The notes beneath the pieces are model-generated. The model was given only the letters and a program-made list of their open reading frames with translations, was not told the DNA's origin and ran no database searches. Shown in pieces: positions 30,354 through 64,000 of a stretch of 64,000 bases of DNA. Both the position numbers and the translations under genes were made by a program. The stretch spans positions 2,914,001 through 2,978,000 of the forward strand of contig NC_092568.1 in NCBI RefSeq assembly GCF_037975245.1. Direction: 5' to 3'. The number at the start of each line of letters is the position of its first letter. Positions within the stretch are counted from its first letter, which is position 1. This DNA comes from Apostichopus japonicus (taxonomy: Eukaryota; Echinodermata; Holothuroidea; Aspidochirotida; Stichopodidae).

Positions 30354-31762
30354 ACTTCGCCCAACAACCATTTCGCCCAACTGCCATTTCGCCCAACCTT
30401 ACCATTTCGCCCAACCTTACCATTTCGCCCAACCAGCCTGGTCATTTCGCCCAACCAGCCTGGTCATTTCGCCCAACCAGCCTGGTCATTTCGCCCAACC
30501 AGCCTGGTCATTTCGCCCAACCTTGATTAAATATGATACTTGAAAAGTAAACGTTCGGGAATTGTTAAAGTTACAGGATACGAACCGAATATTAAGGAAA
30601 CTTGAGGACCGATCAGTGTGTTGGGGGTTAGGTTTGATAGTAAACGTTCGAATATTAAGGAAACTTGAAGTCCTTTTCTTTGTATAACTTTAGTAAGGAA
30701 ACGCCAGGTACCAACGAAAGACATACCGGAATAGACAAGGGCGGTACTTCGATCTCTGGGAGGAGTACTCTGAAGGGAGGCGGTCCACATCCAGTCTTCT
30801 GAGAGCGTGTTCTTTCCTGAACGGACCAACGATGTGAGGTTACACAGCTCCTGAACTATCCTCCAGAAAGATGAAAACTACAGTTCCTCAAATATGCAAA
30901 CGGCTCTTCTTAGGGCCACTTAATGCTCCAGAAAAAGACAACTATTCAGTTCCTCAAACATGCCGATTCTCCTTTGTTTTTATAATAACATAACTTCCAT
31001 ATAATAATAATAATAATATAACTACCAATAATATAACCCAAAATAAATCAAATTGAACTAGTGAAATAGAAACGGTTATATTATTCCACAACGGTTCCCC
31101 TTTGTTTGTATAATATTATAACTTCCAAAAAATAACAATATAACTTCCAATAATTTAACCCAAAATAAATAAAATTGAATTAGTGAAATAGAAACGGTTA
31201 TATTATTCCACACCGATTCCCCTTTGTCTATATAATAATATAACTTCCATATAATAATAATAATAATATAACTACCAATAATATAACCCAAAATAAATCA
31301 AATTGAACTAGTGAAATAGAAACGGTTATATTACTCCACAACGGTTCCCCTTTGTATAATAATATAACTTCCATTGTATGCGTAAACGCCTAAAGTAGTG
31401 TAATCCTCCCATTATACCCGAAATAACTGCTCAGACTCCGATCGATATCGAGCGGACCTCACTTTATTTACCTATTACGAAGTAACCTTACCCAAAATAA
31501 ATCAAATTGAACTGGTGGAATAGAAAAAGTAATATTATTCTGACTGAATATTAGTAAAAATAAGGTTGGGCGAAATGACCAACACGGTTGGGCGAAATGA
31601 CCAACACGGTTGGGCGAAATGACCAACACGGTTGGGCGAAATGACCAACACGGTTGGGCAAACTGACCATGCTGGTTGGGCGAAATGACCAACGCGGTTG
31701 GGCGAAATGACCAGGCTGGTTGGGCGAAATGGCAGTTGGGCGAAATGGTTGTTGGGCGAAGT
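30354..31762. mobile_element. Foldback-like element with tandem-repeat inverted arms
   Basis: The left arm (30354-30522) has nine TTTCGCCCAAC units; the right arm (31564-31762) has ten in inverted orientation. The outermost units match best: ACTTCGCCCAAC, AACC, TTTCGCCCAAC, TGCC in both. Inner units have spacers AGCCTGGTC on the left and mostly GTGTTGGTC on the right. Long inverted arms made of short tandem units with unequal copy number define Foldback/Galileo-type elements. The core (about 30980-31380) has three ~124-bp tandem copies containing TAACCCAAAATAAATCAA and GAAACGGTTATATTA. No transposase found and no clear target duplication. The HFAQPAWSFRPT-like frames across the arms are repeat translations, not proteins. 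Confidence 0.75.
30979..31380. repeat. Core tandem repeat of the Foldback-like element
   Basis: About three copies of a ~124-bp AT-rich unit starting near 30979, 31110 and 31230, each with TATAACTTCCA, AACCCAAAATAAAT, GAAATAGAAACGGTTATATTA and a CGGTTCCCCTTTGT-type end. A further partial copy of the middle block lies at about 31488-31543. Confidence 0.8.
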
Positions 31763-36100: not shown

Positions 36101-39100
36101 GGTCAACCACCAGGCCACATGAAAAGGATGTCAGGGAGTGCTACAGCCTGGGAACCTGGGTCATTCAGGGGGCCTTACTAAAACAATAACAGGGATAAAG
36201 GGTAATGTACTTGCATTTTCATAATATAAATGAAAGCTTGAAAAGGGGGGGGGGGGGAGACCTGATCACATAATTGCCTCCAGGGCCACTCTAGCTCTTG
36301 ATGCCCCTGTCCTACATACCTGTAATATCGAAGTGCTATTTCTGGTTGGTCTGTATAGAAGTGATGGTTAGCAATGCAAGCCAAAGATTCTATGTGAGTG
36401 CTGTCGTGCTTCAACACTTCCTTATAACATTTCACAGCATTGTCCATGTCATTCAGAGCCTGTATAAGAGAACAAGGGGAGGGGGGAGGGGAGAGGAAGT
36501 GGGGGTCAAGACAGTTTCATAACTCCTGAATAACGTCAACAATGTACTGAATGTGAGCATAAACATTCTGATGTGCTTATTAGCTGCATGGAATACCTTA
36601 AGTTATAGTTGTGTAATGTCAAAGGTTATTTGTGAATAAACATCCACAAAAGCTAGTGCTTAGCCTTAGAATGTGAACAAATACCTCTCTGTACATACAA
36701 AATCCACTCATATGACATGAAACAAAGATATGTTATCGCGAGATCCGGAAATAACTTTCAAAGCAATGATCTCATGTTTCATAAGAGAGAAACATCAACC
36801 TGTAAGAGTGAAAGTAGTAGCACATTTCCTGTTATCTTCAACTGTGATTTACTTTCAGTATGAACACGAGAATTCATGCTATGGATTTTTACTTTACAAA
36901 AGCCGTTATCACATGGCTGGCTTTTATCTATATTAAACAAAACAAAAACACCCTGTAAATGAGACAACACTGAATGCTCAGAACACTAGAAGCTCAATAC
37001 TTATTATTTAAAATTATAAATTATTAAACTGAGAATTATGTAGTATTAATGCACCAAAACAAGATACAAAGTTCAATAAATTTGTTTTCTTTTCTAAATT
37101 GTCATTTTGATTGATAACAACTTCATAAGGAAACAAATCATAAGTTCTTTTTTCTTTCTATTTTATTATGCAAATCTAATTAAACAATAAATTGAAAGGC
37201 AAGTTGGCCTTTCTCCTATATATATAATGGACAGATATTAAATTAAAAAAAAAAATTCTAATGTAATTATTCACTATCAAAGTAAGAAAAAATTACTAAT
37301 TTAACAAGGTGCACATTTCACTACTTCTATTTCTTACCTTATTTTGAAATATTGTACAAACAGGAAATTTTGAAGTATAATTGTTGAATTATGGTTACAA
37401 AATACTAATACTCAAGGATATATATAACAAGATGTCATAGTTGGGACAGTGCTTACCTCATATACTCTTGCTATGCCTGTTTGTAGTGTTGTCTCGTTGG
37501 GGAATTTCTCAAGTCCTTGCTGGAATACTTCCACAGCAGTGAGAGGTTGGTCCAGTCGCACATAAACCTTGCAGAGGTACAGGTATGTGTCGACCGTGGG
37601 CTGTTGGGCCAGAGCTGACTTAAACTGTCTTTCAGAATCTCGATATAAGCCCAACCTGGAATAGAACATTACCAATCATCAACATCGATGGAAAGTTCTA
37701 ATTGTATTTGGGCAGAAGGACACTGGTTTCCTCAACAGTGACTGAGAGAACACAAACCCACAGAGAACTCTAAAAGGGTTAGTGGAATATAAGAGGAAAT
37801 GTAGTCCTAAAGTAAGCAAGAAATTTTTGTTTGGTAAGATAGGGACTTGAACCAGTGATCTCCTGATTAGACTCCTTGTGTTATCCTAGCAAATCTAACC
37901 CACCCTTAGTTGGTGGTGATCTCTACAAAACAGCATCTTTGTAATTCTGAGGTCACTGAGTTAAATCCCTCGCCCTTAGTTGGTGGTGATCCCTACAAAA
38001 CAACATCTTTATAACCCTGAGGTCAGTGAGTTAAATCCCTCTCCCCTTAGTTTGGTGTTGATCCCTACAAAACAACATCTTTGTAATTCTGAGGTCACTG
38101 AGTTAAATCCCAATCCCCTGTAGTTGGTGGTGATCCCTAAAACACAAAATCTTTATAATCCTGAATTCACTGAGATAAATCCTTCCCAACATAGTTAGTG
38201 GTGATCCCTACAAAACAACATCTTTGTAATCCTGAGGTTACTGAGTTAAATCCCTCCCCCTTAGTTTGGTGTTGATCCCTACAAAACAACATCTTTGTAA
38301 TCCTGAGGTTGCTGAGTTAAATCCCTCTCCCCTTAGTTTGGTGTTGATCCCTACAAAACAACATCTTTGTAATCCAGAGGTCACTGAGTTAAATCTCTCC
38401 CTAGCCACTGAAAATGTTATTTGCTTTTTACAAATTGTTTTTAATTTTCGAGTCAATTTACAATTGCTGCTTTACTTCTATAATTTGAAGATAAAATATG
38501 ATAGAAAATGCATTCATAGATTGTAGATAGTTAAGAGAGGAGGTTAATAATATAAATTTTTTACATAATTTGCAAATGGCATACTTAGGTATGATTACTT
38601 TGGTGAAAGTTCACATGGCATAACTTAACTGGTATCACATGGCAAACATGGCATAACTTAACTGGTATCACATGGCAAACATTGCATAGTAAAATGCTAT
38701 GCAAGTCCAAAGATATATAGCAGGTTGTTTTTACAAAGGATCCATGTAATAAGACACAAACTTCAGAGCCTTCAATGCTACTACACAAAATTTGAAAACT
38801 TAATTATTCCCTGCATGAACATTGGAGGAGTCTATCCCATCTCCCATACCCTCTCCCCACCCCACACTTGTAATACCCATACCATGGCAGCTATTGCAAT
38901 ATTTTACCTGTAGTAACATTTTCCAAGCTGGACCTTCCACCACCAGTCTTTAAACTGACAGGCCTGTGTTGCCTGTGAAGCCAGCTCCAGGGCATTACGT
39001 ACATCATTCTCATGATGAAAGATGTATTCAAATAGAGCCTGAAATTATAAGAAGCTAGCCTCGGTCAATGTTTCTCTTGGATCCATTGTTGGAAATCACA

Positions 39101-42100
39101 CAGAAGTTAGGAATAGTTTAAACAAAAAACATATGCTGTGATAGAGTTTAAAAAAAATTAGCTTCAGGTGAAATATACATTTAATCTGTTTATAGCTCTG
39201 TTTATAACTGGAAACAGAATCTGTATCACATTGGTAACTTATTTAATCCAGTTCTTCATTATACTTGCTGTGACAACTTTGTTCCCCATTTCAATTAATG
39301 AAAATCTTGTCCTATGTTACATTTTAAATACAAACTTCTTAAAATACCACCCTACTGATCTAAATCAGGGGTTCTCAATAGGACCCATGGGCCAAATCAA
39401 GCCCATGAAAGATTTCAATCTGGCCTGTGAAAGGCATCAGCCCACAATCTTGCACCAATTGGGTATGCCAGCCATTGGCACCTTCATATATGGCACCCTA
39501 CCATGCTACCCTTGCAAATTGCTCAACCTCTAGTGGGATTTTGGTACTCAATGGCCCTTCACTCCAACTTATGTCTTTTTCTGGCCATCTAAAAAAAATA
39601 ATTGAACAACCCTGCTCTAAATCATCTTTATCATCATTTGCAGTGGGATGCAGCTTCTCATGACTTTGTCACAATGAGGCACTTTCTCTTACCAACTTTT
39701 TTCACAGCTGTGATTGGAAAGGCCAATCTAATGAAATAAACCAGCTGTTTCATATTAATATCTTTGATGCTCCTGGATGTCTAAAATACAAGGATGGAAA
39801 TGGATTCTATACCTTCGCCAAATTGGGCTTGGCTGCATACTTTGCAAAATTTAATCTGGCAAGGTTGATGAAAGGACCATCTGGTGTGGACAACATTGAT
39901 GCCTGTAAAAAAAAAAAAAAACTTTTACAGTCAAATTTTCCTAGTTAGTCTGTTTAAACAATAAGAAAAAGATGCATTTCTAAATATTAAGTGATGATTT
40001 TGGGTACAATTTTACATGCTTAGGTCAACATTCCAAAACATCAGAAAATTTTAAGTGCAAGACTGCCAGTTAAAATGTCTGGAAAGTTCCTTTGAGTCAA
40101 ATCTGGCGATACCCTCTGCACATTTGTTCGCGTTGAAGTTATTAACTTCAACTAATGGTTCTGCATATTTTTCAAATATGATAAATATGACATTAAAGGA
40201 AGAAATACAACCAACTTTGCCCTTTGACATATTTATCTGTCATCTTGTATCATATATAAGGTCAATTTCTGTGCTACTTCTGAAGTGCTGACACAATGGC
40301 CAATACATGCAAAAACAAACTAGTGCAGCCACTTTGATGAGAACAATGGTCTAAGGTTATTGAAATGCTACCTGCAATGACAGTTATTTTCTTTAATGGT
40401 TGCTAAATATCAATAGTAATTTGTCATCTTTGCCATAGTAAAAGCAGCATTTCCAGTTGAACCTGAACATTTTTTTCCATGGAAAATTGTCAGTTTAGTT
40501 CACCACTGTAATTTTGATTTGTTTTAACCTACAATGAAAATGGATATTAGTTTGTATTTGAATCTGTGGGCACTTGTGCTAGAATTTAATCAACACTATT
40601 TCAACAAAAGAAATGTGCCCCACAAATTTTGAGGAATGGAATCATCAGTTACTGAAGTAATAAGCTATTTTGGAATAAAAAAGTTATCAGAGTGTCTCAA
40701 TTTTTTCTGTTTCATACATATTTCAGCTAAATATCAATTAAAGAATACAATTTTGAGCACTGTCACTAAGCATTGTGCAATGTTTTATGCCACAAAAGTG
40801 GCAAAAACAATGTCTATAACAAGATAACAACAGAATTGTTACAATATTTCTACTAAAACATAATTTCCTCTCTGAGATTACTCACTGTTCCCAACCTCAC
40901 AAATCTCCCTGAGGCACTTGTGACTGGTCTAGCAGTGTGAGCTGTCCTTGGAGTTCTTATGGCCTGCTCCATGGTTCCCGGTCTTCCTGATTGAGTTCCC
41001 GGCCTGACAAATCCACTCAACGGTCGACCGGATTGAGACATCGGTCTCACACCAGCGGATGGTGCTCCCTGGCCAGTCCCTGGAGCTTTCAACGAAGTTC
41101 CAGGACCTGTTGCACACAAAAATGTAACAATATCTATTGTAAAACAATAGCAGTAATGAACTGGCTAAAAATGGTATACCACTTTTAACAGAGAAATTTT
41201 TATTTGGCTAGAATGGTGTGGTACTAATTACCATACTGGATGTTAGGTTAAGGAAAACAAATTCCATTTTCTACCAACTGCATGAGCTATTCAGTCTGAA
41301 TTTGGGGCTGATCCAACTCCAGCCAAATAGGTCTGTGTATGTTCTTTCATACTAAGCAAACAGGAATAACTTTGTTGGCATACATTTATGTAATAGGTGT
41401 GAAGCATTTGACAAATACAACTTCAAAGCAGCAATGAATGTAGTGCTTAAGAATGTTAGCTCTAACGCATGAAAGCTATACAGATGTCAGTCATGTTAAC
41501 TAGGAAGACTGTCCTGCAACTATATATGTGAAATAGTCTTCCAAATTAGATGAATGAATCATTACAACTTAAATCAAGAATAGAAATGTTGATATTTTCT
41601 ATGGGGCCAGGAAATCAGGAATGAGTAAAATACACGAAGGCATTAACATTCAGTTAGCATGTTCAAAATCTTAAATTGTTGGTTTGAGATGAAGAAGGAT
41701 AACTCCTGAACCTGTTCCTAGGTCTCAAGTTTATTCTAAAAATAAAGGAAAAGGATCAAAGATGGGATCAAGTTCTTACGTGAAACACTGGCAATAACAT
41801 TATCATCCATTATCATCTCTGCAATTCCTTCTTCATCAACTTCCACCTCATCAACATAAACTTGTTCTGTGAGTGCCCTCATCTTCAAATGCCACGTTGC
41901 CTGAATGCAAGTACATGAATGCATCATAATTTGTTTTATAGCTTCAAAGTCTTCTTAAATCTCGACAACACACCACACATTCTTTTATGTAAATGGACAA
42001 TGCAGAGTGCTCAAGAAGTACCTTGGCTATGTGAGTGGTAAGGCTAAGGAGAGGAGAGGGGGGGGGGGGGCAAAAAATGACAATTTCATTATGTTACCAA

Positions 42101-46300: not shown

Positions 46301-49300
46301 ACAACCTTCGTGGTACACAGGTTTGTGGCCTAAGACGATTTTTTAAATATTTTTATTGTGTTCTCTGAAAGGAGGAACATCACATTATTCAAATGATATA
46401 TGTGGGCTTGTATTAAGGGTTAACTCATTAAGGACTAAAATAAGACATTTTGATGATCAAAAACACACTCCACGTCATAGTTTGCACATATTTAATGAGT
46501 TTCCCAGATTTATCAAAATTTCAACTGTGTTTATCTTGGAAACAAAAGAGCTGACGGAAAATTTCAACAGATTTAGCATGAGATTATCACACACAACAAA
46601 TGTATACTGAACATGGGACAAACATGGTGTCCATAGTAAAACAACAACAAGACAAGACAAACAAACAGAGATTGTGATTCGCGCCTTTGGAGGGAAAAAA
46701 TCATACTGACGACTTAGTGCCTTAATGTGAACCTACTCATAGCATGTAGATTTGTATCCATGTCATTATACAGCTTAATACCCAAAGTAGAGTTAGTGGC
46801 TAAATGTGAATGTATCATATCGTATTCATACATTGCATATCATGTTTTTTTAATGAGTAATGGTTGTGCTAATTGGCAAAACCAAATAGAAAAGTGGGTT
46901 AACTTTTGCATATAGCTAAACTAAGTGAAGTGTGATCTGCAAGCCATCTAGTTAACAATCAGTTTTTTTTTCTCTAATTTCACATGCAAGCTAACATTTC
47001 CCCATGGGACAAACATGGTGTCCATAGTAAAACATGGTGTCCATAGTAAAACAACAACAAGACAAGACAAACAAACAGAGATTGTGATTCGCGCCTTTGG
47101 AGGGAAAAAATCATACTGACGACTTAGTGCCTTAATGTGAACCTACTCATAGCATGTAGATTTGTATCCATGTCATTATACAGCTTAATACCCAAAGTAG
47201 AGTTAGTGGCTAAATGTGAATGTATCATATCGTATTCATACATTGCATATCATGTTTTTTTAATGAGTAATGGTTGTGCTAATTAGCAAAACCAAATAGA
47301 AAAGTGGGTTAACTTTTGCATATAGCTAAACTAAGTGAAGTGTGATCTGCAAGCCATCTAGTTAACAATCAGTTTTTTTTCTCTAATTTCACATGCAAGC
47401 TAACATTTCCCCATGATGAGTTACATCTCTTAAACTAAAAACTGGCAAAATCTTGATAAGTGGTAGTCTCAAGAACACACTCTGCCTGACTCTCCCCAAT
47501 TTCCACAGTATGTGTGTCGGGTTGTGTTCGGGTGAGTCTTGTGTGACCGGTTTAAAGTGTTCTTTTTGCTCGTTTTTGACTTGGTTGTATTTTGTGTTGA
47601 TGCAATCAAAGTGAGATGCAACAGGGTGAGAAGAACAACAATGACATGGAAGACCGGGATGAAGATGAGACATTGGACAGCGATGAAGAGAGAGAGGCAG
47701 AAGACACCACTGCAGAATCAAAGGAGCAAATCTCGGAGAATAAATCTAAATTTAAAAGGTTAGGGCTGTTCAGAAGGTCTAAAAGCCCAATTAAGGACAT
47801 CAAATCAAAAGTTCCCAGTAAGATACCCGAGGAGGAAATTGGTGATGAAGATGTCGTAGAATCCTTGGAACAGTCTGAGGGAGATGAAAGTGAGGTGGAG
47901 GAGGAGGAGGAGGAGGAGGATGTGGTGGAAGAGAAAGAGAAAGAACTGAGTAAGAAGGAGAAAAAAGAGAAAGAAAAACAGGAGAAATTACAAGCCAAGG
48001 AAATGAAGGAGAAAGAGAAGAAAGAAAAGAAAGTTCAGGAGAAACTTGAAAAAGAGAAAAAGGCCAAAGAAAAGAAAGAGCAGAGGGAAAAACTGAAGGA
48101 TGAATCAGAGAGAAAGAAGAAACAAGAAAAGGAGAAAAGTAAAGGGAAAGAAAGTAAGGCAGATGTAAAGGAGAAGGATGAGGAGGAGGAGAAGGAGGAG
48201 GAGGCAGATGAGGATAATGGAGAGGATAATGAAGAGGATGAAGACAGCTTGGAAGATGAGGATGAGGACAAGATAGAGTCAGAGGAGGAAGAAGAAGATG
48301 ACGATCTTGAAGGACCCGATGACGATGAAGATGATGTTGAAATTATTTCCGAGACAAAACAAGACAAAAAGGGCATTGATGTAAAGAAAGAGAAAGAGGT
48401 CACAACAGATTCTAAACGAGGGAGCCGTGGATTTCGTTTCTTCCGAAGCAAAACACCAGACAGGTGAACTAGTTGTGAGAGTGATTAATAGTACTAACAG
48501 TAAACTTGGTTTGTGGTGCACACACTTTACCGTCGCATTAATGAATACTTGTTAACAGTTAGCTGTGTTAATTTCATACTAACCCATAGCACTTGCTTAT
48601 CGCTGGTGTCATACCGACATCAGTGGATTTCACACTTTCACTGAACCTGACAAGTTGTTCTGCTGGATATTCGTTACAGAATTCCAGAAACGATATTTTC
48701 TTGTGTATATGTTAGATGTCAACATTTGTAATGTTAATTTTGTGAGTAACTTACTTAAATTAATCATTTCTCTTTCATGAACATTTTGTATCACTTTTCA
48801 TTTCTCAAGACACGTTGAATCTTCGTTTTCAGACTGTTCAAAGTAAAAACCTTCTATGAAATCTTGTTGTTCTTACTCATACCTATCACATTCATACAAT
48901 TTCTTGTGTTTGATCATTCTTTCCAATCCAGTTCACTCTTTCATATTGACATTCTTTTATCAGTTTTGTGCTGTAAAACCATATCATGTCTTATGTGGGA
49001 AAGTTTCCTTACACTTAAAGACTTGTTCCTTGATTAAAATGTATCCTTAAATGTTTTAAGAGTACTCAGTAGCATGGCATTAATCTCTTGTGTAGGAATG
49101 TTCTCAGTAACCTGTGGATAGCCTGTAAAATAGCGTCTAAAAAGCTGTTTTCGATGCTACACTCCCGGTCCGTATCATGCAAGTTACCATAGGTTACCAT
49201 CGATAGATTGAAAATAAAAGTTATTTGTTGTTCACTGTAACAGCCCAAAGGTGTAACATAAATGTCAAACGGAAAGGAATGACAAAATTGCTCACAGTAA

Positions 49301-52300
49301 ACAATGCCTGATGTGAAAAACAACTGTGTTCATTTTGGCTAAATTGAAGGGTCAAAAAATAGATTGCTTCGGTAATTGATGTAGCTAGTGTGTTTTGTGA
49401 AATTTCTTTAATTCTTAGAGGTTTGAGAGATATTTGCTTACCCATTATTTCATGATGTTGACAACTTTGCCACAAATTTAACATGACATTGATATTTGTT
49501 TCAGGAAACAAAAACCTGAGGAAGTAGGCAAAGATTCGAGTACCAAACAGAGTGGGAAGGCTAAGCCCGGTAAAGGTAAGAGACAGGATTTGTTCACTTT
49601 TAAAGCGATAGAAACTGTTCTAAGAGTATATTTGAATCCAACAGTTTCAAGTGATTGCAGTTTTTGTCAAGTTTCAGCCGAATTTTCATTACAGCTCTAA
49701 TCGATCTGAACAATTGGTTTCTTTGTTACAATCTTTGTGTTAGATTGAGTATGATTATTAGATTAGGGATAAGATTTATTGAATTTCGGCTGTAATCAAA
49801 TTACAGCCATGATATTTTACATTTGTGGGTTTAATATCATAAAATACAGTTTGAAAACTGAGTTGATTACTTTTGATAACTAACAGAAGGCAAGGGAACT
49901 AGAGTAGAAGAAGTAGATGGAGATGATGAAGATGATGAGGAAGAAGAGGATGATGATGATGATGAGGAGGAGGAGGATGATGAGGATGAGGAGGAGGAAG
50001 AAAGTGATGAAGATGTAGTCATAGCTCAGCCTAAGTCATCTGGAGTATCGAGTAAACCTGGACCTTCCAGTTTTTCATCGAAACCGAAATCAACTGGTGA
50101 CTCTTCTAAAAAAGTTGGAATAGTGAGGCAAGATGCCAAGGAAGATGAAAGCAGCGATGAGGATGATGATGAAGATGAAGAATATGAAAGTGGAGAAGAA
50201 GAGTAATGAATATTCATTTATATGCAAACCTATGCAGCCAGTTGGGACAATTTTCTAGTGCTAATACCTCTCTAAACTATCCTCCCATATCATGTTTCAA
50301 AGCACTTGTATCGACAGTACAAACAATTCCTAATCTTTATCTGATATTAACACCATATTCATACTGCTCATACTGACACTACGAGTGCTCTGAACCAGGA
50401 TTGACATTACAGTATAGAATAATTGTCCCAACTGGTTGTCATATGAATTTAAATCTATGAATATCCATTTATGTGATTTAAATATGAAACGTTCAGGTTT
50501 AGTGTTTGACATTTTGCTCACATGATTAAATTGTTAACTGATATGTTTTTGTTTTGCAAAATATTCAATACAAAATAATGAAATTTTACAATTGGAATTG
50601 TCACATCAGTGGTCTTTGATCTTGAAAATGGCAAATGATATTTGGAATAACAAACAACACTGACAATTTTTTGTTGTTGCAAATGTGCCATTGAAATTAT
50701 GTCAGAGTCAAATATAACTGTGAATTATTACGGAAGCTATCCATAAGTGGGATGAAAACTGAGCAAAACTCTTCAGTCAGTATTACTTCTTTACAGTTGC
50801 CAGTCAGTCTTCATTACAATGAAAGGAATATCACTGGCATCTCTAGCAAACACAATTCTTTGTTCCATGCTAGCTGCCCATTTTTACTTGGTATTTTGAG
50901 TTAGCAGCAGTTTACAGTGTATATAGTGGTGTTGTATTCAGAGTGTAGTTCTATTCTTCTGGGTACAATGGTAGGTTGAACAGGTTAGGCAGTAACCATG
51001 TTTGTCTGTATCATGTTAGCTCGCATGAAGTTTATTTCTTGCTAGTTCCTATAAAACTCCAGGTAATAATAATGGATTTATTTACAGAGTACAATATCAA
51101 CATAAACGTTATCACAGGCACAATAATACAAACAATTGGTAACAGAAAAGCAAATAATATATGAAATCAGCCTAGAATGAATAACGACCGTAAAAAAAGA
51201 CAATATCCACGAAAAAAGAAAGCCTGGAGTAATATTTATTTATAATTGATATTTTAGTGAAGAGGAAGGAGAATTAGAGGAAGAAGAGGAGGAGGAGGAA
51301 GAGGAGGAGGAAGGAGATGAACTTGAAGAGACGGGATCATCAGAAGAGGAAGATGAGGATGATGAAGATGACCAATTACCTCTTGAGGGAGTAAGATAAT
51401 CATGTTTTGTTTATTTCTTTCCCCCAATTTTTTTTTAAAGCATTATACGCTTTTGTTTTGCTTAAGGTCTTGGAAGAAGAACAGTGCTAATTTTTGTCAA
51501 ACCACATTAAAATGTTTTCCTTGCAAATGGGAATGGTCTTGCCAATGTGTTGCTAGGCTACCCTTATAAATAGAATAATTTTGTGGTAAATTATGCAAAG
51601 CAATAGTTCCAAAGGCCTGTGTTAGCTTTTCTGGGAAACAGTTTACTTTGCCAAAATTATTGTGTCATGTTGGGTCATTTATCAATACAAGATCTATTTC
51701 CACTTAGTTTTGACAACAGTGCACTTTGTTGAGGTATTTCGAAAATTAATGAACTTAATGACCATTTACTACTTGAGTTGAGTGAGTTTTGTTTTCTAAA
51801 AATAGGACAGGTTTATATTAGCAGGCAGCAAAATGCTACAAGTTCTTCATGAATGATTATTTGTTCGGATCTGTTAATTGAAATAAAATTTTGTATGATT
51901 TATTTCCTCATACTGAATGAAGTCGATTGTTTTGTGTCATTTTTGACACGAAAAATTTATAATTGCTGTTCTTGTAATCCCATTCGAATTACAAAATTGT
52001 ATGTTATATTTCTGGACTTTCCTGGATTAAGTATTTATAAGCATGTTCTCTTTGCATATCTTTTCCTTTTTAGGAGAATATGTTTGTTGTTCTGTGTGAT
52101 TTTGATGGCGAAGAACCGACAGACTTAACGGTAAAACAAGGCAATGTTGTCACCATCCTCAGCACAAGGTATAGTAGTTAATTGTAGCATCAACTAGAAC
52201 AAAAATACAAATTGTGTCACCTCCCAGAATTTATTTGGAGAGATGTTAGTGAACACATGAGGGCATTGTCTGTAAGGTTATTGTTAGTTTAATATCAATC

Positions 52301-55300
52301 TTAACATATCAGTTACATCAAGCATTTAAACATGGAATAATTTCATACAACCATGGTGAGAAATTTTGATCTTCTAGAAACTGTTCTCTTCCAATGTACT
52401 CAGATTCAAAATCGACTTATCTTGTTCTACAAGTTTTATAATAAATGTAATTAATTGATAGCCAAACAATGTCATTTGATTTGACTAATGGGAGGAGATA
52501 TGGATGTTTAAGAAAAACCTGTTGCTAAGTGTCACTTTGTCTGCTAAAGGGTATTTCCCTTCATTGTCATATCCATCCCAGGGTTGGGCTAGAGGTGGGG
52601 AGCATGGAATCAGTGTTACTCACATTATTGTATTATGGTCTACCACCACCCCACCTCCCTCACTCCTTGTACTCACAATAGACACTGGAAATGTCAATGA
52701 TCCAGTTTTGAAGGACCATATGGTGATGTATCTTTTAATCAATACATTTTGCCATTATAACTGGAATGTTTGCAAATTTGGTGGTATGTGAAGTAGGAGA
52801 AACAAATGGACCTCCGTGATATGAATTATTTGTTTAGTGTAATAGAATGTAAACAAGAGTTACTGTAATATTCAAGAATTTATGTATGGATTTGCCTCAA
52901 CTTTGAGAAAATTTTCACAAATCTCCTTCATGTCATATCTGAAATATTCAAGTAAATTATTCATTATTTATACAGAGAGGATGGTTGGTGGATGGCAGAG
53001 GATGAAGAAGGGAATAAAGGCATGGTACCAAGCACTTATCTCAAGGTAACAAACAGGACCTATTGATAAAGGGCAGGGGAAGTGGTATGTGTGTGTGTGT
53101 GGGGGGGGGGGGGAGGGGAGTGGGTGTGATACCTCTTGTAACAATCAGGAATGCGACCAGGACATGCAGAGTACTGGTGGCTGTTTTGCAATGTCCTGGC
53201 AAATTTGGATCACTTTGTTAAATTCATCTTTACTAATGGACCTTGAAGTACTGGTTGTGGCAAACAGTCATTGCTGGTCAGAAAGGCATTCATTTTAGCT
53301 TGGTGTTTGTCGGTAAGACTGACTGTCAGTCGGTACTGACCACCACAGACCAGCATTCATAACATCACCGTTGACAATGGACAAACTTGTTTATACAGTT
53401 ATAAGTTTAAAGGCATTGAAGACTCGCCCCAAACCGCGTGCCACCCTCTGAAAAAGTTAACTTTCCTTTGCTTGCAAGTGAAGTTTTTTCTTGTCGCTAC
53501 AAAATGCAGACAGTTATGAAACGTGATACCGTGTTATCTTTTATCTAGACCTGATATGTCCATCGCTGCTATGCACACTGTGTTGTGGGTATTGACCGTA
53601 GCTGTTTGTTTTGTCTGTACACTAGTGTCAAATTACCGACGGTAGCAAGCTGTGTGTGTATTTTCTGGTATTGATGGTGGTGTCTAACACTTCTGTTACA
53701 CCTCATTCAAAACTAGGTCAGATTACCGGCATGAGACGTTTCTTTGTGCGCGAGTCTTCACACCCTTTAAGGACAGGATTAGTTAATGTAATTTAATTTA
53801 ATTTGCCTATGACCTGAACCTCTACTGGGAACCTGATAGTGAACTTTGTATCGTGAATAATCAAATACTGCATTTTAACTTAATTTCTTTGCACCCATTA
53901 AAATATTTTATAATTGATTACTGGCGCAGGAAGTGTGTTCAACAACAATGTCAAGGATGAAAGAAAGACCTGAGTATTAGATTTTCAATGTTAACTGCCA
54001 TTTTATAATTTCAGTATTAACTGTCTTAATTTATGCAGCAAAATTCACTTTAGCTGTGAAAAATAAAGTGGAACAGATTCAAAAGTTATTTTAGATTGTT
54101 CCTCTGTGTTTAGTTCATCATGTGTAGCAGTATGTGCATCTTGATTCAGTTGTGCTTTCTTAGATTCTAGTAAATATTAATCTTCATCTTTCTGTTTCTT
54201 TCCTCTCTCTCTCTCATATTTTAGCTGAAGAGAGACTCTGTTGACTATAAGGACATTCAATCACCAGAACCAGAGGCAGGTAGGTCATTCTTTGTGTATT
54301 TATGCAGTTTTTAGTTAGATTTCAGTTGTAGATAAGAGATGTTGACAATTCACAAATCAAAAACAGATAATATTCCATAATTATTGAAACAACAAAAAAC
54401 TTTGTATTTCCCTGTCCCTGATTTAAGCTACATTGCAGGCAGTAATGTATATATGGATACAAAACTTAACTTAAATACTTGGCAAAGAGCAAAATTTCAA
54501 CAGTTCCACATGAGTTTATTAAATCTTTCAGCATTTGTTCAACCTCATGACAAATTTGTGTTGGACAAGTTCAAAAAGTTGGGAAAACCTCTTTCCATGG
54601 ATTCTTCCTTCTTTAAACAATAGCATTTGTTTACTTGCATCATGACAAAGTGTTTCCTTTGTAAGCTGTTTATCTACCCGACTATCCGTTTCCAGTTTGA
54701 ACAAATTATCATTTTAATACGTTTGGGAAGGGAGGAGAGGTGAGATGTTACATTAGGGAGGGGAGGAGAGGTGAGATGTTACAGTCTCATTGTTATCCAT
54801 CTCCTGACACCTATGATCCTTGTGTGAAATTTTACATGTTATGTATTCAAGTGTAATGACATATACTCATTTTGATGTTGTTTTTTGTTTTTGTTTTTTT
54901 GCAAGATGCAGATGAGAATTTTTCTCCTAGAAGGTATATCCATCATGTATACAAATTCATCAACCTACTTTCCCCCCATTTCTGACTTTTATATGTTTAT
55001 TTATTCCATGTTCTTAGAGTTAGACTGTAACTTTCTTCCACAAATAATTTGATAATAAATGGTTTTCATGATAGAAAAGCCAAACGCTATAAAATACTAA
55101 TAATAGAAAAATTTAACTCAGATTTTTTTTAACAAAAATAACAAATTACTAAATTTGACTGCTTCCCTTTTTTTTCCCTTTTTTTTGAAAGCAGCAGTTT
55201 GGGTTAAATCTAAATATATTTTTGCATTGCGATTCCTTTTACCTATAAATAACTTAACTGTCAACTTACCTTACAAATAATCCGGAAAATTTAAACTGGC

Positions 55301-58300
55301 ATATATATACTGAAATATATTTTAAAAATGAACAATTGGAATCATCACTCCATTGTTGACTAGTGATCTTTGACTACAATCAAACGTTAATAGGTTTGTT
55401 TGACCTCAAAAAGTCAAAATAATGAAGAAAAAAAAGAAACAAACAAAGTAGCATGTGTAATTAAATTGACAAACAAGTTAAAACAGATAAAGAAAAAAAC
55501 TTCAAAGAAATTGCAACTTATGAATCATGGGATGAAAAGATTTTCTCCCTCTTTCTCAAAGGACCATAACTTAATTACATGCATTTGAGATCCTCTCTCT
55601 TTGGGATGATCTGGCTGAGATTCATATGAAGAAAATTTAATAAATTCAAACCACTGGCTCAAAAACACATATTGACTGGTTCCTCCTCACAAAATCCTCG
55701 CTGCTCTAAATCATCCATTTGTATTTATAGAGATAAACAGAATGTTGGCTTTTGTTTATTCTTTTGTCTTTAATTATCGTGTGCCCCTGTCAACATTAAT
55801 ATCACTGTAGTATCATTAGTTTCTCTTTCATATTTTCTCTCTTCTTGTCTGTCTTCTCTTCATTTCGATGAAAGATACGGTGGATGATATGGAAGACAGG
55901 TAAATTGGACATAGTTCAGAGGTTTGCTGATCTGTTGTTAAAAGGTTCTTGAAAGCAGTGGCATGCAAAATTAGTGAGCCTAAAGATGTGTGAGAAATGC
56001 AAAAATGTAGGTGTTAGTGGTGGCTGTCCATTTTAGTTGAATAGCAATGCAGTTAGATAGTAAAGAAAATGGCTAGTTTGTAGATACAAGAATGTGTAAT
56101 GATTCTGTAGCATTTTAAATGCCAATGAAATTTTTGTTTGAGATGCAGCAAAATTGAGTTGACAGAGAAGGTAAAGAGGAGAGATGAGTAAGTTACTAGA
56201 ATGTAGAGAGGTAGAGCAAAGGGAGGTAGAGCAGAGAGAGGTAGAGCAAGTATGGGAGGGTGGGAAGATATGTAATATTAAGAGAAATCCTAGGGAGGGG
56301 GGGAGAGGAGGGTGGGAATAGAATGGAGGATGGGCATTGTGTAATATTGGGAGCCGGGAAGATTATGGTGCAGTAAGGTCGGGTGGTATAGTGGAGATAG
56401 TATAATAGGCTACAAATGGCAGAAGTTAGGGTAAGGAGTGGGTAGTAAAACATGAAGGAGTAGAAGGTGGTACCATGGGGTGGGGGAGGAAGCATAGGAG
56501 GAAAAGTAATGTGAGGAGAGTCAAGACGGAAAGATTAAATAGAGGAAAGCAAAATTGAGCAGAGTTGGGTGTTGGAAAGGGTGTAGGTTAATATGGAGGA
56601 TATTAGCAATGGATTTTGAGTTGTTGGTAGTTTGTAATATTTGGTGCTGCCAGATATTGGCATCTTGTCATAAAATTATATGTCTATCGTTAGATGTTGC
56701 ATAATATTAGTGTTGATATGGGCAGATATCGTAATCCTAAAATTCTCCAATATCTGGAATGTTGCCTCTGTATTCTTTAATTAACAACAGTCTGTTATAT
56801 CTTCTCTTGTATCCTTTGTTTCCTTGTTTCTTTTGTCTGCTTTTAACATCTCATTTTGGTTTCAAACCTTTTTTTTCTTGTTAATCCATTCATTTTGTCT
56901 ATTTTTGTTATAAAGCATACTATTCATGCCATTTTTATTTGGTTTGATTTGCAAATTTGCATATAATTTGTCTACTAATAAAGCCTGCATATTACATAAA
57001 ATTTTTGCATATAATTTGCCTTGAGTTTTTTGACTTCACAAATAATGCGTGTTGCATAAATATGCGCATACGTAATACATTTTGTTTAAGCGAAACACAA
57101 AAACAGCTCTTTATCTGCCAGTATCTCTACCATGCAACCTAAATTGTTAGTGGGTTGTTTGTACCTATGGGATTTGAGACTTTGGTAAGATGATACTATG
57201 GCAGGCCGAATGTCTGACTTCAGCGAACTGCTGCATGCAGTAGTAGCTTAGCTCATGGGGCTGTGGGGTGGTTGTTATTGGAACAAGAATGCCATCCACC
57301 ACTTACATTTGAGGCTCTACTTTGCCTCTCCTAGTTTTACTCCAGAATAAGGGCTAGGTACCCTTCCCCCGCTAACCTCCCATCCAAAGGCAAAAGTGCT
57401 AAGTAATGCATAAATTTTAATGCTCGCTTATGTAGAGTACTTTAAAAATGACTGAATGAGGAGAACATTAATTGTTGGAAACATTTTGATTTCATTTGTC
57501 ACTTTCTTTCAAGTATATGCCTTCACTTTAGACTTGCTATAGGAAATTTTGTTTCACATATGCAGGGGTGTACTCAAGAATGTTTGAGTGCAGGTCGGAT
57601 TTGTGCAGTAGTGTGATCCACATCCTGGGGAGGGGTCTAAGGGGTGGGGTGTCCTCCCAAAAAATTTGCAAATGAAGTATGCTTGGATGGCAAATGGTTC
57701 CTATTCCAGAGTTAACTTGTGTGCCAAGTATTCACCAATATTTTGGTAATGGTAAAGTTTGCTAAATTAATCATCAAAAGTAGTGCCGTGCGGAAATGCT
57801 CAAAGTACTGTTTGTGCTGGGCAGCATTCAGAACTGCCGGGAGCAGCCTCCCAGAGCTGCCCGGCTTGAGCACGTCCCAGCATATGTTGTGAAAATGTTG
57901 TTTTGCCCTCACTGTACAAGGGGTGGAAGTAGGGGGGGGGGAGTGGGAGGAGATGGACAAGAAGAGAATGTACCCACCACTGATCCCAGTATGTTTATTA
58001 AGTCTAACAGTACTCATTTTAGTTATATTTTCTTATTCTTTCTTTTCATTTTCTCATTCTTTTGTATTTATTTCCGTAGTGGCAAAGAGCTCTGGAAATC
58101 AGTCAGGAAATCCGTACATGAAGTAAGATGATTATTATTTCATTTTGAAATTAACTCAAGCTTGATCCTGCTATGGAATACATATACGTAAAGTAATCTT
58201 TGGCAATGTAGAAATCAGTATTGTGTTGTTCCCTATGAATTGAAGTGAATGTCATTGTGAATGTCATTGTGAACATTTTAGCGATGATAATAATAATCGG

Positions 58301-61300
58301 TCATTGATGACATCTTGGTCAACCAACGGTTAAGGAAAAATTAAATATCGGTGTAGCATGAGTGTCAGCACAGACCAGTTGCGGGTCTCAAAATTCTCTC
58401 TCTGTACCTTCATTGATAGACAGCCCTACTGTACGCAACTGATGTCAGTTACAGTGTATGATGGTAATAAAGACCCAGTTTTTGGTCTTGTTTGGTTTTT
58501 CTGTTTTTGGAACAAACCATCTACCATTATGAAAGGGTAGAAAATATCCGTGAATACATCAGAATGACTTTTACACATCATGAGTAGACTATTTCATACC
58601 CCCCTCCCCCTCCCTGGAAGAATGTAAATTATGTACATAATTTACAACTAATTATGATGAAGTCTTTGATCTTGTACAATTAACCTTTGTACTCTCTGTT
58701 TTGCCATCAGACCAGTGCTACAGATGTTTTGAGTGCCATGGGTGCTATTCCAGCTGGCTTTAGACCGTCCATGACAGCGCGTCTTCTAAAAAATGGTTGG
58801 TGTTTTCTGTCATTGAACTTGTGTTTATTTAATACTTTGCAAAATTTTGCTACACATTATCAGAAATGTTTGGAACTTCTAATATCTTTTAAATCAGAGA
58901 ATAATTAAAATATAACTTGATTTGCCTGATATAAGTTGCCCTGAAGGTAGATGATACTATATATAATAAAAATTGTCAGACCCTTCGGCTTTTTATACTC
59001 TCTCCTGCATCGGGAAGGTTCAGGTAGATGAGCAACTTCCAAAGTGTACAGTGATTTCATACGTCATTCATTGTGATTCCTGGGATGACTTTAACAATGT
59101 CTGTAGACCAAAGAGAATCTTTTAGCTTTTGCTGTGAATATTCCTCTTTTTTATTTCATTGTATTTTTACTTTTAGAACAAAATAAATTGAGCAGTTTCT
59201 TGAAACCAAAGTTGAGTCCGTCCAATCTGAGCTTCAGCGATCTGCTCTGGGATCCGCAGACTAGTCAGGTTAGTTGGAGAGACAAAGTATCATTGGAGAA
59301 AATATTCAATATTGTAATTAACAAAATGATGAAATAAATTGCATGGGTCTGGAAATATAATGTTGGATTTGTGTTACTATACAAAACATCATGAACATTG
59401 CAAGTTAAAGCATGGCATTGGAGAAGCTCAGAGGCTGATTTGATAGTCTATACTTTGCAAAATTTATTGAATAGTTCACTTAGAGATTGCCCTTTGAGGT
59501 CAAGACCAAAAGATAAAAGAGAAAATTATATTCCTCATGAGAAAGCTGGTTAATTTTGTTTATGACCGATATTCTTTTATCTGTGATTTCTTGAAGGTGA
59601 ACAGACATAAATTTGTGGTCATATGGATTCAAATCTTTATTGCTGTATTAGTTTGCTTATCCCTGGAATAATTTCATATGTAAACAATCTCTTCCTTCTT
59701 AATTTACCAGTTACGTGCGGTGCCTTGCAGACTCCAAAAGATGCTCTCCCTGGTCTTGGTGAGAAACATGCCAGCCATGGGTGTAGGTAGGGTAGCAATT
59801 TCCTTTATATTTATTCCCCTAATTGATTCTAGGTAGTATTAAGGCACCTCAAATATGTCCCCCAATGACAAACAATATGAAACAATTGATTTCTAGATCA
59901 AAATGGCATACAAACACTTACTCATCCCCCCCACCCACCCCCCCCCCCCCCACCCCACCTGTTACCTTCTCCTCTCTCCTCTCATGATGAGTGGCATTGC
60001 ATTGGAAGCTCATATAGGCAATAAACTTTACTTGAATTAAACTAAATCAAATTTAATATAGAAAAATATCTTCTCATCTATCTTTGGTTGTTTAATAATT
60101 CTCTCATTGTATGATATTCACAAACATCCATTTTCATAGCAGAATGAAAGGACCACACATCATAATGTAAAATCTTGGATTGTTGGAAGACATCTAAGAA
60201 CAACGAACAAACGAAGGAAGGAATAAGCATGTGTGATTTTTAGACCGAATAAGAATGTATGGTATTGAAGAGAGTCAATATTCGTACTACTATTATATGT
60301 AACACATTGCAAGATATTTGAATTGCTCTCAGACCAAGGACGTATGCAGGTTAGACATTGCAAGATGTGAGTTTCTGATAGAATTACTGCAGTATTCAAA
60401 CTTACTATTCTCTCTTAACCTTTCAGGATTGGAAACCAAGAGCAGACATGCTCGAATTGCAATCTTTGATGGAAAAGAGGTAAGTGATATGCTAAATGAT
60501 ATGTTAGTGAAGATGCATGAATATGAAAATTAAAATAAAAAGAAAGAGAAAAGCTAAATATAGTTTTTTGTTTCTTTTCAAAGCACTATAGTTCTTAAAT
60601 GTACCAGGTGATAGCCTAAGATAGCAAACGTTAACCAAGCTGTTAGCTAAAACTTCAAATTTTAGAAAATCTAACTACAATGTGAGGGAAGAAAAAATTT
60701 GTTCTTGAAGGTCATACTAGATTATGAAACATATTATAGAACCAAATAGAATAAATAAAACAAAGCTGCAGTAAATCCATGAATATATGAACTATGAAAG
60801 ATGCAAGTGTGACACATTTATGATCTTCAGAGTACCAGAACAAAAATAACACATGCCTCTTGAAGGGTAGGGCCAATACATGTGCTACAAAGTTGCCTGA
60901 TGAAGATAAAGTGGTTGGGCTTTTCCGAATGGTTGGTGCTGGAAGAATCCACGTAGGGGGTTTCTTTGAAACATTGGCAGCTCTTAGTTTTCCGTCGGCA
61001 TTTCAACAAGTTTTGTCTGAATTGCTAAAATTTGTGTTAAAGAGGGTTTTAATATTCAAGTTACTTTTCTTTTACCTGTCCTAGGTCCTTAGTAACATCC
61101 ACACAGTTCAAGCGACATGGAATGAAACCGACCTCAAGACCTGGAGGTTCTCACCAAGGGTAAGTACCATGCGGATAGGAAGTACTTGTTGTGTTATGAA
61201 CACCTTATGAATGATAAATTAATGCAGTGTATTGGTTTAATCTCCTATTAAACCATTAGTTTCAGTCCGAGGGGAGTGTCTCTTTCAAAATGTATGTTTT

Positions 61301-63209
61301 TGTGAACGTAATCAATATAACACTGGCTGTGAAAAGTGTAAGCAAATTTAAGATTACTCATACGAATTTACTCTGACCAAAAATTTTCTTTCATAAGTTA
61401 ATAAAATACATTTTTATAACTAAAATATTTATGTGGTTACTAGGTAATGGCATATTATATGTTTGAATTGGTCACATGTCTATTTTTAAAATGTATTTTA
61501 AAGTTGACCAGCATCTATTGTGGTATAAGCACTTTGATGTAATAAACAATATTTTAGTAACTACAGCTATTTATTTAAGTCAAAAGGGTGTGATTTACAT
61601 TGTTGACTAGTGGTTTAAAAATCCATGCAAAGAATTTATATCACATGAATGATTGATATGTCATCCAGCACAATATATGGTAATATTGATATTAAGGTGA
61701 CCTTAAAATACATTAAACTAATCTATCATATTATAATATATGCCGTCTGGTCACCAATTTCCAGGTATCTGGTATACTTCCCAGCATTCTTGATGGTGAA
61801 TGCTTCATAAGATCTGATAAATCTGACAAAAACGTTGGTGAGTTTTACATTCTATTTATCTTTGATCTGTTTCATTTAATTATAGTCATGTGTGTTTGAT
61901 GTGGGAGGGTGGGGGGGGTGCAGGGGAAGATAAGGGGTGGTGGGATTGAGATGTGGCTGAAGTCACAAAATTTCAAAGCCCAGGTGGCTCATTAAATTTG
62001 AATATAGAGTAACTCAAACTGTTTTCTTTTCTTTTGGAACGACCAAATTTAGAAAAATACTCTTTGTTTCATTCCTGTTCCTTTCTTCTTTTTAGAAGCT
62101 ACATTTTCTGTTCCATGGTTACTTCTTAATCAGTTTTCAAAGACCACGTAGAACTTAAACATAACTGTACAGCCTTCAGTCTGACATTGATGTAGTTACA
62201 AGGGTTGTATTAAAAAGCTGCATTTATGTGGTGATGTAACTTCTGGATGTAATGCTGACCAGATCATGTAGATTTTAACATAGTTGACCTAGCCTTCATA
62301 TGTAAGGTCTATTTAGTTGCACCTGTTTGACATACCAATTAGAGAGATGCAAATTTTTCTTCCGTTCAATTTTTGCAACGTTAATCCTCAGAAGTTTAAA
62401 TTATTATTTTTGTTATGATAATTTTCATTTGTAACCCTTTCAAGTTAAGCCTTTTTTCATCTTTCCGAGTGTGATGAAAGTGACAACATAGTTCTCATGC
62501 ACTGAAATCTTCCTTTAACAGTTGATTATGATCACAAAAGACTGGCAGCAAATTGAGCATAAATTTCTACTTCAAGTCATAGTGTGTTCAGAGATTATTC
62601 ATTTCTCTCTTAAAGAGGAAGCAGCTATAATATATTTTCCTTCATTTCTTCATATATCTCAGGTAGCTTTATAAGAGCATAAATCTATGAAAAAGATTTA
62701 CCTCAAATATATTAAAATATCTTGCTCTTCGTTTCCAGGGTTACTGATAGAACTTTGTGTGTACTACGTCAGGACAGTAAGTAATCTTTCCACCGTAGTG
62801 GTTACACTCAACTGACATGTTTGTCTACTGAAGTGTGTAACAAAAAATTGTTTTTTTACAACAATTTGTAACAATTTTAATATATAAATTTTGTCACCTT
62901 CTGAGAGTTAAAATTTTCTTGGGTCACAGTTTAATTGCTTTGAATCAATGTTTGTTGAGGTTAGGATATGCTTTCCTACACTTTGTTTATCTTTGTTACA
63001 TTTAGTTTTATAGGATGTGGGATTTTTTTATGCGGTGTGGGGAGGTCCTGTATGGGGGAGTGGTATTTAACTGCTCAGATTGTTATTAATCCTTCATGTT
63101 TTTTATTTTTTTATTTTTCACAGAAAACTGGTGAAAAGGGAGAATTAAGTTGTGGATGGGTTCATCTTCCTCTCTTTAGTGAAGAGACAGGGGGACCTAT
63201 CATCAATAA
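43306..63209 (+). CDS. NPHP1: Nephrocystin-1, 5' part (continues beyond window)
   Basis: Scaffold of the ciliary transition zone (NPHP1-4-8 module). Exons: 43306-43368, 44289-44377, 44545-44605, 44988-45062, 45507-45568, 47612-48463, 49505-49575, 49887-50202, 51258-51390, 52074-52168, 52976-53045, 54225-54279, one of 54906-54933 or 55875-55899, 58080-58122, 58711-58795, 59177-59268, 59711-59786, 60427-60479, 61085-61159, 61765-61837, 62739-62776, 63124-63209. All phases agree, giving about 863 aa so far. Residues ~22-96 form the coiled coil (KCKEILQDSG, RCRELQKAVTKLEKKVG). SH3 is ~575-629 (VVLCDFDGEEPTDL, DGWWMAEDEEGNKG, VPSTYL). The nephrocystin homology region follows (MGAIPAGFRPS, VLSNIHTVQATW, LDGECFIRSD, GEKGELSCGW). 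It matches human NPHP1 block by block except for a greatly enlarged charged linker before SH3. Roughly the last 290 residues should lie to the right. Confidence 0.95.
46612..47411. repeat. Recent ~400-bp tandem duplication in NPHP1 intron 5
   Basis: Unit 1 (46612-47002, 391 bp) and unit 2 (47003-47411, 409 bp) are nearly identical, differing by one T in a run, an A/G change (AATTGGC versus AATTAGC) and an extra 19-bp internal copy of AAACATGGTGTCCATAGTA in unit 2. Weaker relatives of its TCATAGCATGTAGATTTGTAT block occur at about 45940 and 46010, so the family was already repeated before this duplication. Confidence 0.95.
47612..48463 (+). CDS. NPHP1: NPHP1 exon 6: giant charged linker exon
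   Basis: 852-base exon joined to exon 5 in phase 2 (acceptor AATCAAAG; the T at 47612 completes an Arg codon) and ending AG|GTGAAC inside an Arg codon completed by exon 7. It encodes ~residues 117-400 of the protein: an acidic head, a basic FRRSKSP motif (~170), a polyglutamate block, then a Lys/Glu segment (~223-298) with the i to i+4 charge pattern of a single alpha-helix, an Asp/Glu block, and a closing basic FRFFRSKTP motif. The serine-rich frames seen on the other strand are shadows of the codon repeats. Human NPHP1 has only a short acidic stretch at this place. An alternative is that part of it is skipped in some transcripts; the phase 2 to phase 2 borders would allow that. Confidence 0.85.
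49887..50202 (+). CDS. NPHP1: NPHP1 exon 8: acidic linker
   Basis: Follows exon 7 in phase 1 (G|AA). It encodes a run of Asp/Glu, then a serine/lysine/proline-rich spacer (SSKPGPSSFSSKPKSTGD), then another acidic run. The donor is GA|GTAATG, placed so that failure to splice gives a stop at once (GAG TAA). The joined codon GA|T leads into exon 9 (51258-51390), which is almost pure Glu/Asp up to the SH3 exon. Confidence 0.85.
52074..53045 (+). CDS. NPHP1: NPHP1 exons 10-11: SH3 domain
   Basis: Exons 52074-52168 and 52976-53045. The product holds the SH3 signatures in order: a degenerate ALYDY (VVLCDF), the acidic RT-loop GEEPTDL, the paired tryptophans DGWW, and the VPSTYL proline-pocket end. 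In nephrocystin-1 this domain binds proline-rich partners such as p130Cas. The intron interrupts the domain after the third strand, in an Arg codon. Confidence 0.95.
53411..53766. mobile_element. TTAA-target MITE in NPHP1 intron 11
   Basis: Flanked on both sides by TTAA (53407-53410 and 53767-53770). Inverted ends AGGCATTGAAGACTCGC and, complemented from the right, AGGGTGTGAAGACTCGC. A TTAA target duplication is the mark of piggyBac- and Kolobok-type transposons; with 356 bp and no frame it is non-autonomous. Confidence 0.85.
54906..54933 (+). CDS. NPHP1: NPHP1 microexon 13a (28 nt)
   Basis: Acceptor TTTTTTTTGCAAG, donor AAG|GTATAT. Enters in phase 1 (completing G|AT) and leaves in phase 2, encoding DADENFSPR plus part of an Arg codon. 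It fits between exon 12 (ends phase 1) and exon 15 (starts phase 2). It cannot be followed by the second microexon, because the join then reads a stop within four codons. Confidence 0.7.
55875..55899 (+). CDS. NPHP1: NPHP1 microexon 13b (25 nt), alternative to 13a
   Basis: Acceptor TCGATGAAAG, donor CAG|GTAAAT. The phases are the same as in the 28-nt microexon 941 bases upstream (1 in, 2 out), encoding DTVDDMED plus part of an Arg codon. Its acidic content resembles 13a. Using exactly one of the two keeps NPHP1 in frame; using both or neither does not. Confidence 0.65.
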
Positions 63210-63916
63210 GTAAGTTTCCTCTCCGGGTGGACCTATCATCAATAAGTAAGTTACCTGTCCGGGGGGACATATCATTAATAAGTAAGTTTCCTCTCCGGGT
63301 GACCTATCATCAATAAGTAAGTTTCCTCTCCGGGGGACCTATCATCAATAAGTAAGTTTCCTCTCCGGGTGACCTATCATCAATAAGTAAGTTTTCTCTC
63401 CGGGTGACCTATCATCAATAAGTAAGTTTCCTCTCCGGGGGGACCTTTCATCAATAAGTAAGTTTTCTCTCCGGGGGGACCTATCATCAATAAGTAAGTT
63501 TCTTTTCCAGGTGACCTATCATCAATAAGTAAGTTTCCTCTGGGAGACCTACCATCAATAAGTAACTTATCTCTCCGGGGGACCTATCATCAATAAGTAA
63601 GTTTCCTCTCCGGGGGACCTATCATCAATAAGTAAGTTTCCTCTGGGGAACCTTTCATCAATAAGTAAGTTTCCTCTCCGGGGGGACCTATTATCAATAA
63701 GTAAGTTTCCTCTGTGAGACCTACTGTACCATCAATAAGTAAGTTTCCTCTCCGGGGGACCTATCATCAATAAGTAAGTTTTCTCTCTGGGGGACCTATA
63801 ATTAATGAGTAAGTTTCCTCTCCGGGGACCTATCATCAATAAGTAAGTTTCCTTTCCGGGTGATCTATCATCAATAAGTAAGCTTCCTCTCCGGGGGGAC
63901 CTATCATCAATAAGTA
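63191..63916. repeat. Minisatellite made of exon end plus splice donor, about 21 copies
   Basis: The unit is about 34-36 bp: GGGGACCTATCATCAATAA, then GTAAGT, then TTCCTCTCCGG. The first copy is the true end of NPHP1 exon 23 with its donor. Eighteen of 21 copies keep GTAAGT exactly; the exceptions read GTAACT, GTAAGC and GTAGTG. One copy is preceded by TCTTTTCCAG (63501-63510), an acceptor-like sequence. The complementary strand gives LIDDRS-type repeat frames without meaning. Confidence 0.95.
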
Positions 63917-64000
63917 GTGTCCTCTTCGTCAAGTCTTTAGACTTTTTACATCAAATGTTATGTATTACCTTCAAGCTGTAGTTATAACTTGCTGAGTATA
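63917..64000 (+). other. NPHP1: Right edge, NPHP1 intron 23
   Basis: Unique intronic sequence after the minisatellite. The next NPHP1 exon, expected to enter in phase 2 with a sequence equivalent to the TYELFLNGG region of the human protein, is not reached. Confidence 0.6.

Follow-up and report, generated by a model that had tools for sequence, protein, structure and literature searches.

A stretch of 64,000 nucleotides of Apostichopus japonicus DNA (the window) carries, at the end of an exon assigned to NPHP1, a tandem repeat that contains the exon's 5' splice site. The locus raises the question which of the many near-identical donors can serve the gene, and whether the remaining ones influence its splicing or are simply tolerated. 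All positions are given in window numbering, and a slash within a sequence marks a splice boundary.

The array and the gene that carries it

The assignment to NPHP1, made in the original prediction, was supported by several matches. The upstream exon pair encoding an SH3 domain matched Pfam SH3_1, and its top match among the best 60 of 248 matched sequences was PDB 1s1n, 'Nephrocystin 1'. A human NPHP1 query matched the array's exon in a tblastn search (E 3e-5) and, after the array, five more exons in collinear order (E 4e-4 or better). For the downstream exons, sequence was fetched to approximately 29 kb past the window. The joined peptide of the array-side exon and the next exon matched no Pfam family. 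The array-bearing intron (63210-64341) ends with TTTATAG outside the window, and the next exon starts at 64342. The features of the locus are the following.

63124-63209, plus strand: NPHP1 exon of 86 nt, KTGEKGELSCGWVHLPLFSEETGGPIINK, ending in phase 2 (AAT AA/); placed by tblastn with human NPHP1, by AG before and GTAAGT after it, and by its in-frame join to the next exon.
63190-63925, plus strand: minisatellite with a 35-bp unit in 20.9 copies; from TRF and the list of sites, one genomic locus found.
63210-63215, plus strand: first donor, with GTAAGT; alone among the 21 it keeps the NPHP1 frame; from conceptual splicing of the 21 donors to the next exon.
63246-63848, plus strand: donors 2 to 19 in intronic copies, with exact GTAAGT in 17 of 18 (63562 is GTAACT); from the list of sites and conceptual splicing.
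63499-63528, plus strand: variant copy with an acceptor-like TTTCTTTTCCAG/GTGACC (63499-63516), the only AGGT in the array.
63878-63919, plus strand: donors 20 and 21, degenerate (GTAAGC and GTAGTG), copy 21 passing into unique intron sequence; from the list of sites.
63210-64000, plus strand: in-window part of the intron, whose whole length is 1132 nt.

TRF, run on the 64-kb window, reported the array with 86% matches, and 21 donor-like sites were counted in it, from 63210 to 63914 and 33-38 bp apart. The predicted amplification of the exon end and its 5' splice site, about 21-fold, was thus borne out. The consensus unit is GGGGGACCTATCATCAATAA/GTAAGTTTCCTCTCC (exon side/intron side); its first 20 bases come from the exon end and the remaining 15 from the start of the intron. 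It spans the exon end and the donor, as had been claimed, but reaches 20 and not 19 bases into the exon. GTAAGT is exact at 18 of the 21 donors, and the longer AATAA/GTAAGT at 17 of the 21. There are indeed 20 further copies after the first; the 18 exact hexamers that had been ascribed to them include the first donor, so that 17 of the 20 later donors are exact. The hexamer is lost in copies 11 (GTAACT), 20 (GTAAGC) and 21 (GTAGTG), and copy 18 reads AATGA.

When a 21-base piece of the unit was searched with up to 3 mismatches, 20 matches were obtained, all inside the array, and none in 100 shuffles. A DNA search found a single array locus in the genome (671.6 Mb, 35 contigs); as it passes over common words, it could miss more distant copies. 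Pairwise divergence between copies averaged 0.109 and varied between 0.094 and 0.122 over lags 1-11, with no rise with the distance between copies. This flat profile fits one-by-one decay of the copies; homogenisation would look alike.

Resemblance to known exon-boundary minisatellites

The belief that no such case had been described proved wrong. Mirages are minisatellites on exon boundaries of amphioxus genes, and the passages dealing with them in PMC3087553 and PMC3902484 report that they do not disturb splicing. They occur in Adh3 (Canestro et al. 2002, cited in PMC3087553) and in the globin genes BflGb6 and BflGb9 (PMC3087553). Repeats overlapping splice sites are described also for amphioxus PGBD5, with Adh and TnC cited alongside, in the relevant part of PMC3902484, where normal splicing of PGBD5 is argued rather than RNA-tested. 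In the globin paper itself the authors caution that aberrant transcripts might arise where splice signals are repeated (PMC3087553).

By its anatomy the NPHP1 array fits the definition of a mirage, because the repeat unit spans the exon-intron boundary and most copies carry an intact splice signal. As in amphioxus, tandem copies of an exon-intron boundary bring splice signals into the intron. The exon's 3' boundary is copied, as in BflGb9, whereas in BflGb6 it is the acceptor side, and the 35-bp unit lies within the range of 10-72 bp of the Adh3 units. The ~21 copies compare with 6 and 3 in two BflGb6 haplotypes. Mirages have been described from cephalochordates and the present host is an echinoderm, a difference that concerns host range and not anatomy. 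What appears new is the occurrence outside cephalochordates together with the many copies. This suggests that mirages are perhaps no cephalochordate peculiarity and could also come about in other invertebrates whose genomes are rich in repeats. No sea urchin or other echinoderm case was recognised in a literature search, although published ones may exist.

Since mirage length in amphioxus differs between haplotypes, and somatic instability has been reported at Adh3 (PMC3087553), it was considered that the array could be an assembly artefact, or that the locus varies so strongly in length that the copy number found here is atypical. The donor-to-donor segments differ by 11% on average, and individual copies have private variants, which argues against simple assembly stutter of one copy. 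We regard this explanation as very unlikely.

A second precedent is human IFI6 (6-16, G1P3; formerly IFI-6-16). The title of Turri, Cuin and Porter (1995) says of its interferon-induced minisatellite that it 'provides multiple splice donor sites'. According to a citing paper, two of the downstream units function as donors, and three mRNAs result. As far as this title and citation go, the IFI6 minisatellite resembles the NPHP1 array in supplying many splice donors and differs from it in that downstream units are in use, whereas the later NPHP1 donors would truncate the protein. For human genes in segmental duplications, the portion of PMC2812944 drawn on here reports that boundary tandem repeats alter gene structure and may create introns, and that 66% of the repeat-driven intron changes also show a repeat-keeping transcript. 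The repeats described there have units of 30 bp on average in four copies and belong to recent primate paralogues, in contrast to 35 bp in 20.9 copies in NPHP1, where the array-bearing intron need not be a new one. An abalone TSSK1-like minisatellite (PMC6905558) was discarded as a parallel, being intronic and, in the text concerned, not placed on an exon boundary.

Reading frame and conservation of the donors

When the 21 donors were joined conceptually to the next exon, donor 1 gave an in-frame, phase-2 junction reading GGPIINKLYELQVNGGTPFEQG. This junction restores the conserved NPHP1 sequence GGPIINK/LYELQVNGGTPFEQG, whose human counterpart is PAKTYELFLNGGTPYEKG. Each of the 20 later donors read ...NK-stop, the frame ending after 29 codons of the array's exon, which agrees with the prediction that their use would meet an immediate stop and truncate the protein. 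In this respect the array is unlike the amphioxus mirages. From the stop to the new junction the distance is 32 to 700 nt.

A common stop that is shared by 20 donors, precedes the new junction by more than 50 nt in 19 of them and is followed by more introns downstream would be suitable for a poison-donor rheostat, in which some transcripts use donors 2-20, NPHP1 is cut at the same residue in all of them, and copy number tunes the dose via NMD. The stop is automatic, however, because a phase-2 intron starting with GTAAGT always reads ..G TAA if retained, and in amphioxus mirages reportedly leave splicing undisturbed. Such a role seems highly improbable. As little credence is given to its heritable form, in which ~20 near-equal U1 sites would compete with the true donor and divert RNA to one decaying truncated transcript, the repeat number setting the NPHP1 level.

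No special accessibility of donor 1 was found in the predicted pairing of the 21 donors; its predicted unpaired probability was 0.048, compared with 0.026-0.429 for the 20 others. With near-identical donors and a pairing prediction that gives donor 1 no advantage, the site itself leaves a win of donor 1 unexplained. Rfam at gathering scores gave no match in 62000-64000, and ARAGORN detected no tRNA gene in the whole window.

The AGGT of the acceptor-like variant is absent from the consensus unit and occurs in 1 of the 21 copies. With the donor at 63529 this copy would frame a mini-exon of 18 nt bringing a stop. Recursive splicing (AG/GT) was rejected on these grounds, and the variant was taken as a curiosity. 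This putative acceptor resembles the situation from which intron gain through mirages would begin in the model of PMC3087553.

The original prediction had further held that the donor is preserved through otherwise diverged copies, as expected if it matters. For this comparison 20 donor-to-donor segments were used, with the GTAGTG of copy 21 lying outside and 3 of 38 columns dropped as gap-rich; adding copy 21 would reduce donor conservation further. Changes were found in 3 of 180 cells at the nine donor positions and in 39 of 520 at the other 26 (Fisher p 0.003), cells of the repeat sharing descent. Without one aberrant segment the difference decreased (3/171 and 29/494, p 0.036). The donor is A/T-rich and most changes fall at C and G positions. 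Within base classes the figures for donor and rest were 2/140 and 7/240 for A/T (p 0.49) and 1/40 and 32/280 for C/G (p 0.10). Column shuffles within base classes gave p 0.05 for changes and p 0.20 for distinct change types, or 0.20 and 0.39, respectively, when the aberrant segment was omitted. Of 35 windows of nine bases laid around the unit, seven had as few changes as the donor window, which is counted among the seven. The best kept nine-mers span ATCAATAAGTAA, running from ATCAATAAG to AATAAGTAA, and occur in 19 copies each. They are displaced to the exon side of GTAAGT, a hexamer present in 18 copies. The claim was therefore upheld in the raw comparison but not under composition-aware controls (p 0.05-0.39), and the best block lies on the exon side. 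Given base composition and shared variants, there is no convincing sign that the donor is preserved better than the remainder of the unit, and weak constraint is possible.

The exact GTAAGT at 18 of 21 donors and the smaller raw count of donor changes (3/180 against 39/520, p 0.003) are what would be expected if the row of donors recruited many U1 snRNPs while the cut still took place at donor 1, either securing recognition of the exon or keeping the intron from being cleaved and polyadenylated prematurely. The composition-aware shuffles and the exon-side position of the best kept block argue against such a bank of U1 sites, as does the next NPHP1 exon, which has one strong donor after its end (AAAG/GTAAGTC). 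Genome-wide, three GTAAGT separated by gaps of 10-40 bases were found 5099 times in forward and 3705 times in reverse orientation (8804 in total), and the backwards pattern used as control 4896 and 4803 times (9699). These counts are of overlapping matches dominated by large arrays and the control is crude, but by this measure no enrichment of donor-like triple GTAAGT over the backwards pattern was detected. We consider the bank of U1 sites improbable.

Donor choice and genomic context

At the level of the sequence the anatomy of the array, the frame, the stops and the lack of a clear extra constraint on the donor are established. The array is most probably a mirage-type minisatellite of which the 5'-most donor is used, the other 20 donors being tolerated passengers. 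A 35-bp segment over the exon end and the donor would have been multiplied in tandem by slippage or unequal exchange, with copy 1 representing the real exon end and the further copies lying in the intron. In the animal the spliceosome would cut at the 5'-most donor, and the phase-2 join would yield normal NPHP1. The 20 further sites could be tolerated if splicing at the first donor is accurate enough, and stray use of a later donor would probably be removed in the form of stop-bearing, NMD-type transcripts. Donor 1 is probably favoured because it is the first to be recognised as transcription proceeds, and because the 86-nt exon is recognised by exon definition.

The passenger reading is suggested by the fact that one donor in 21 opens the frame into the next exon. 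The unconvincing donor conservation under composition-aware controls, the independence of copy divergence from distance and the lack of enrichment of triple GTAAGT point in the same direction. Counting against it is the raw difference between donor and rest (p 0.003), so some constraint may exist. Among competing donors SRSF1 is reported, in the part of the literature drawn on here, to favour the intron-proximal and hnRNP A1 the intron-distal one. A preference of the SRSF1 type would favour a late, harmful donor and counts against the passenger reading as well. The same applies to the pairing prediction, which does not single out donor 1, to the warning of aberrant transcripts (PMC3087553), to the repeat-keeping transcripts of human duplicated genes (PMC2812944), to the acceptor-like copy and to the P450 comparison below. 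With 21 near-identical donors 33-38 bases apart, one of them compatible with the protein, the locus represents a natural experiment on the choice of the spliceosome among equals.

Tandem arrays of period at least 10 cover 7.3% of the window, to which the NPHP1 array contributes 1.2 points, and 2.2% of the 120,465 bases that surround 30 P450 matches. This base rate refers to those 30 of the 96 listed P450 domain matches that had loci, and 2 of the 30 lie inside this window; the other 66 and the 134 kinase matches are outside the count. None of the 30 had an array within ~60 bases of either match end, these ends being domain ends and maybe not splice sites. With such array cover, an array falling on one donor somewhere in the genome would be unsurprising; the absence of end arrays from the 30 matches indicates that, counted per exon, they are infrequent.

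Several other repeats were observed in the window. A 50-bp unit is present in four copies at 100% identity at 17607-17809, a very young tandem repeat. Two arrays with 22-bp units, at 30421-30522 and 31564-31731, approximately 1 kb apart, have TTCGCCCAACC in common in opposite orientation. A tandem duplication of 410 bp with 99% identity (46620-47415) is located upstream of the NPHP1 exons, and a short interstitial, telomere-like GGTTAG array occupies 10085-10132.

ORFs on the minus strand at 35138-41164 lie near NPHP1 (52083-63209, plus strand) on the opposite strand. Judged by eye they resemble TTC8/BBS8, which like NPHP1 is a cilium gene. The mitochondrial contig (C35, 16,099 bp) has the order cox1-R-nad4L-cox2-K-(atp genes)-cox3-(-S)-nad3-nad4-H-S-nad5-(-nad6)-cob-F-...-E-T-P-(-Q)-N-L-(-A)-W-C-(-V)-M-(-D)-Y-G-L-nad1-I-nad2. 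Of 25 tRNA predictions 22 entered this order, three inside protein genes being discounted as spurious; cox1 was identified by Pfam and the remaining genes by eye from their translations. The order is of the sea urchin/sea cucumber type, and at one conserved COX1 site AAA corresponds to Asn. Amphioxus, considered as a source on account of its mirages, was rejected on this evidence. On another contig (C29, 14745-31219) five COX1-like pieces with TGA codons were found on the minus strand; either this contig is a rearranged mitochondrial one, or the pieces are mitochondrial DNA that resides in the nucleus.
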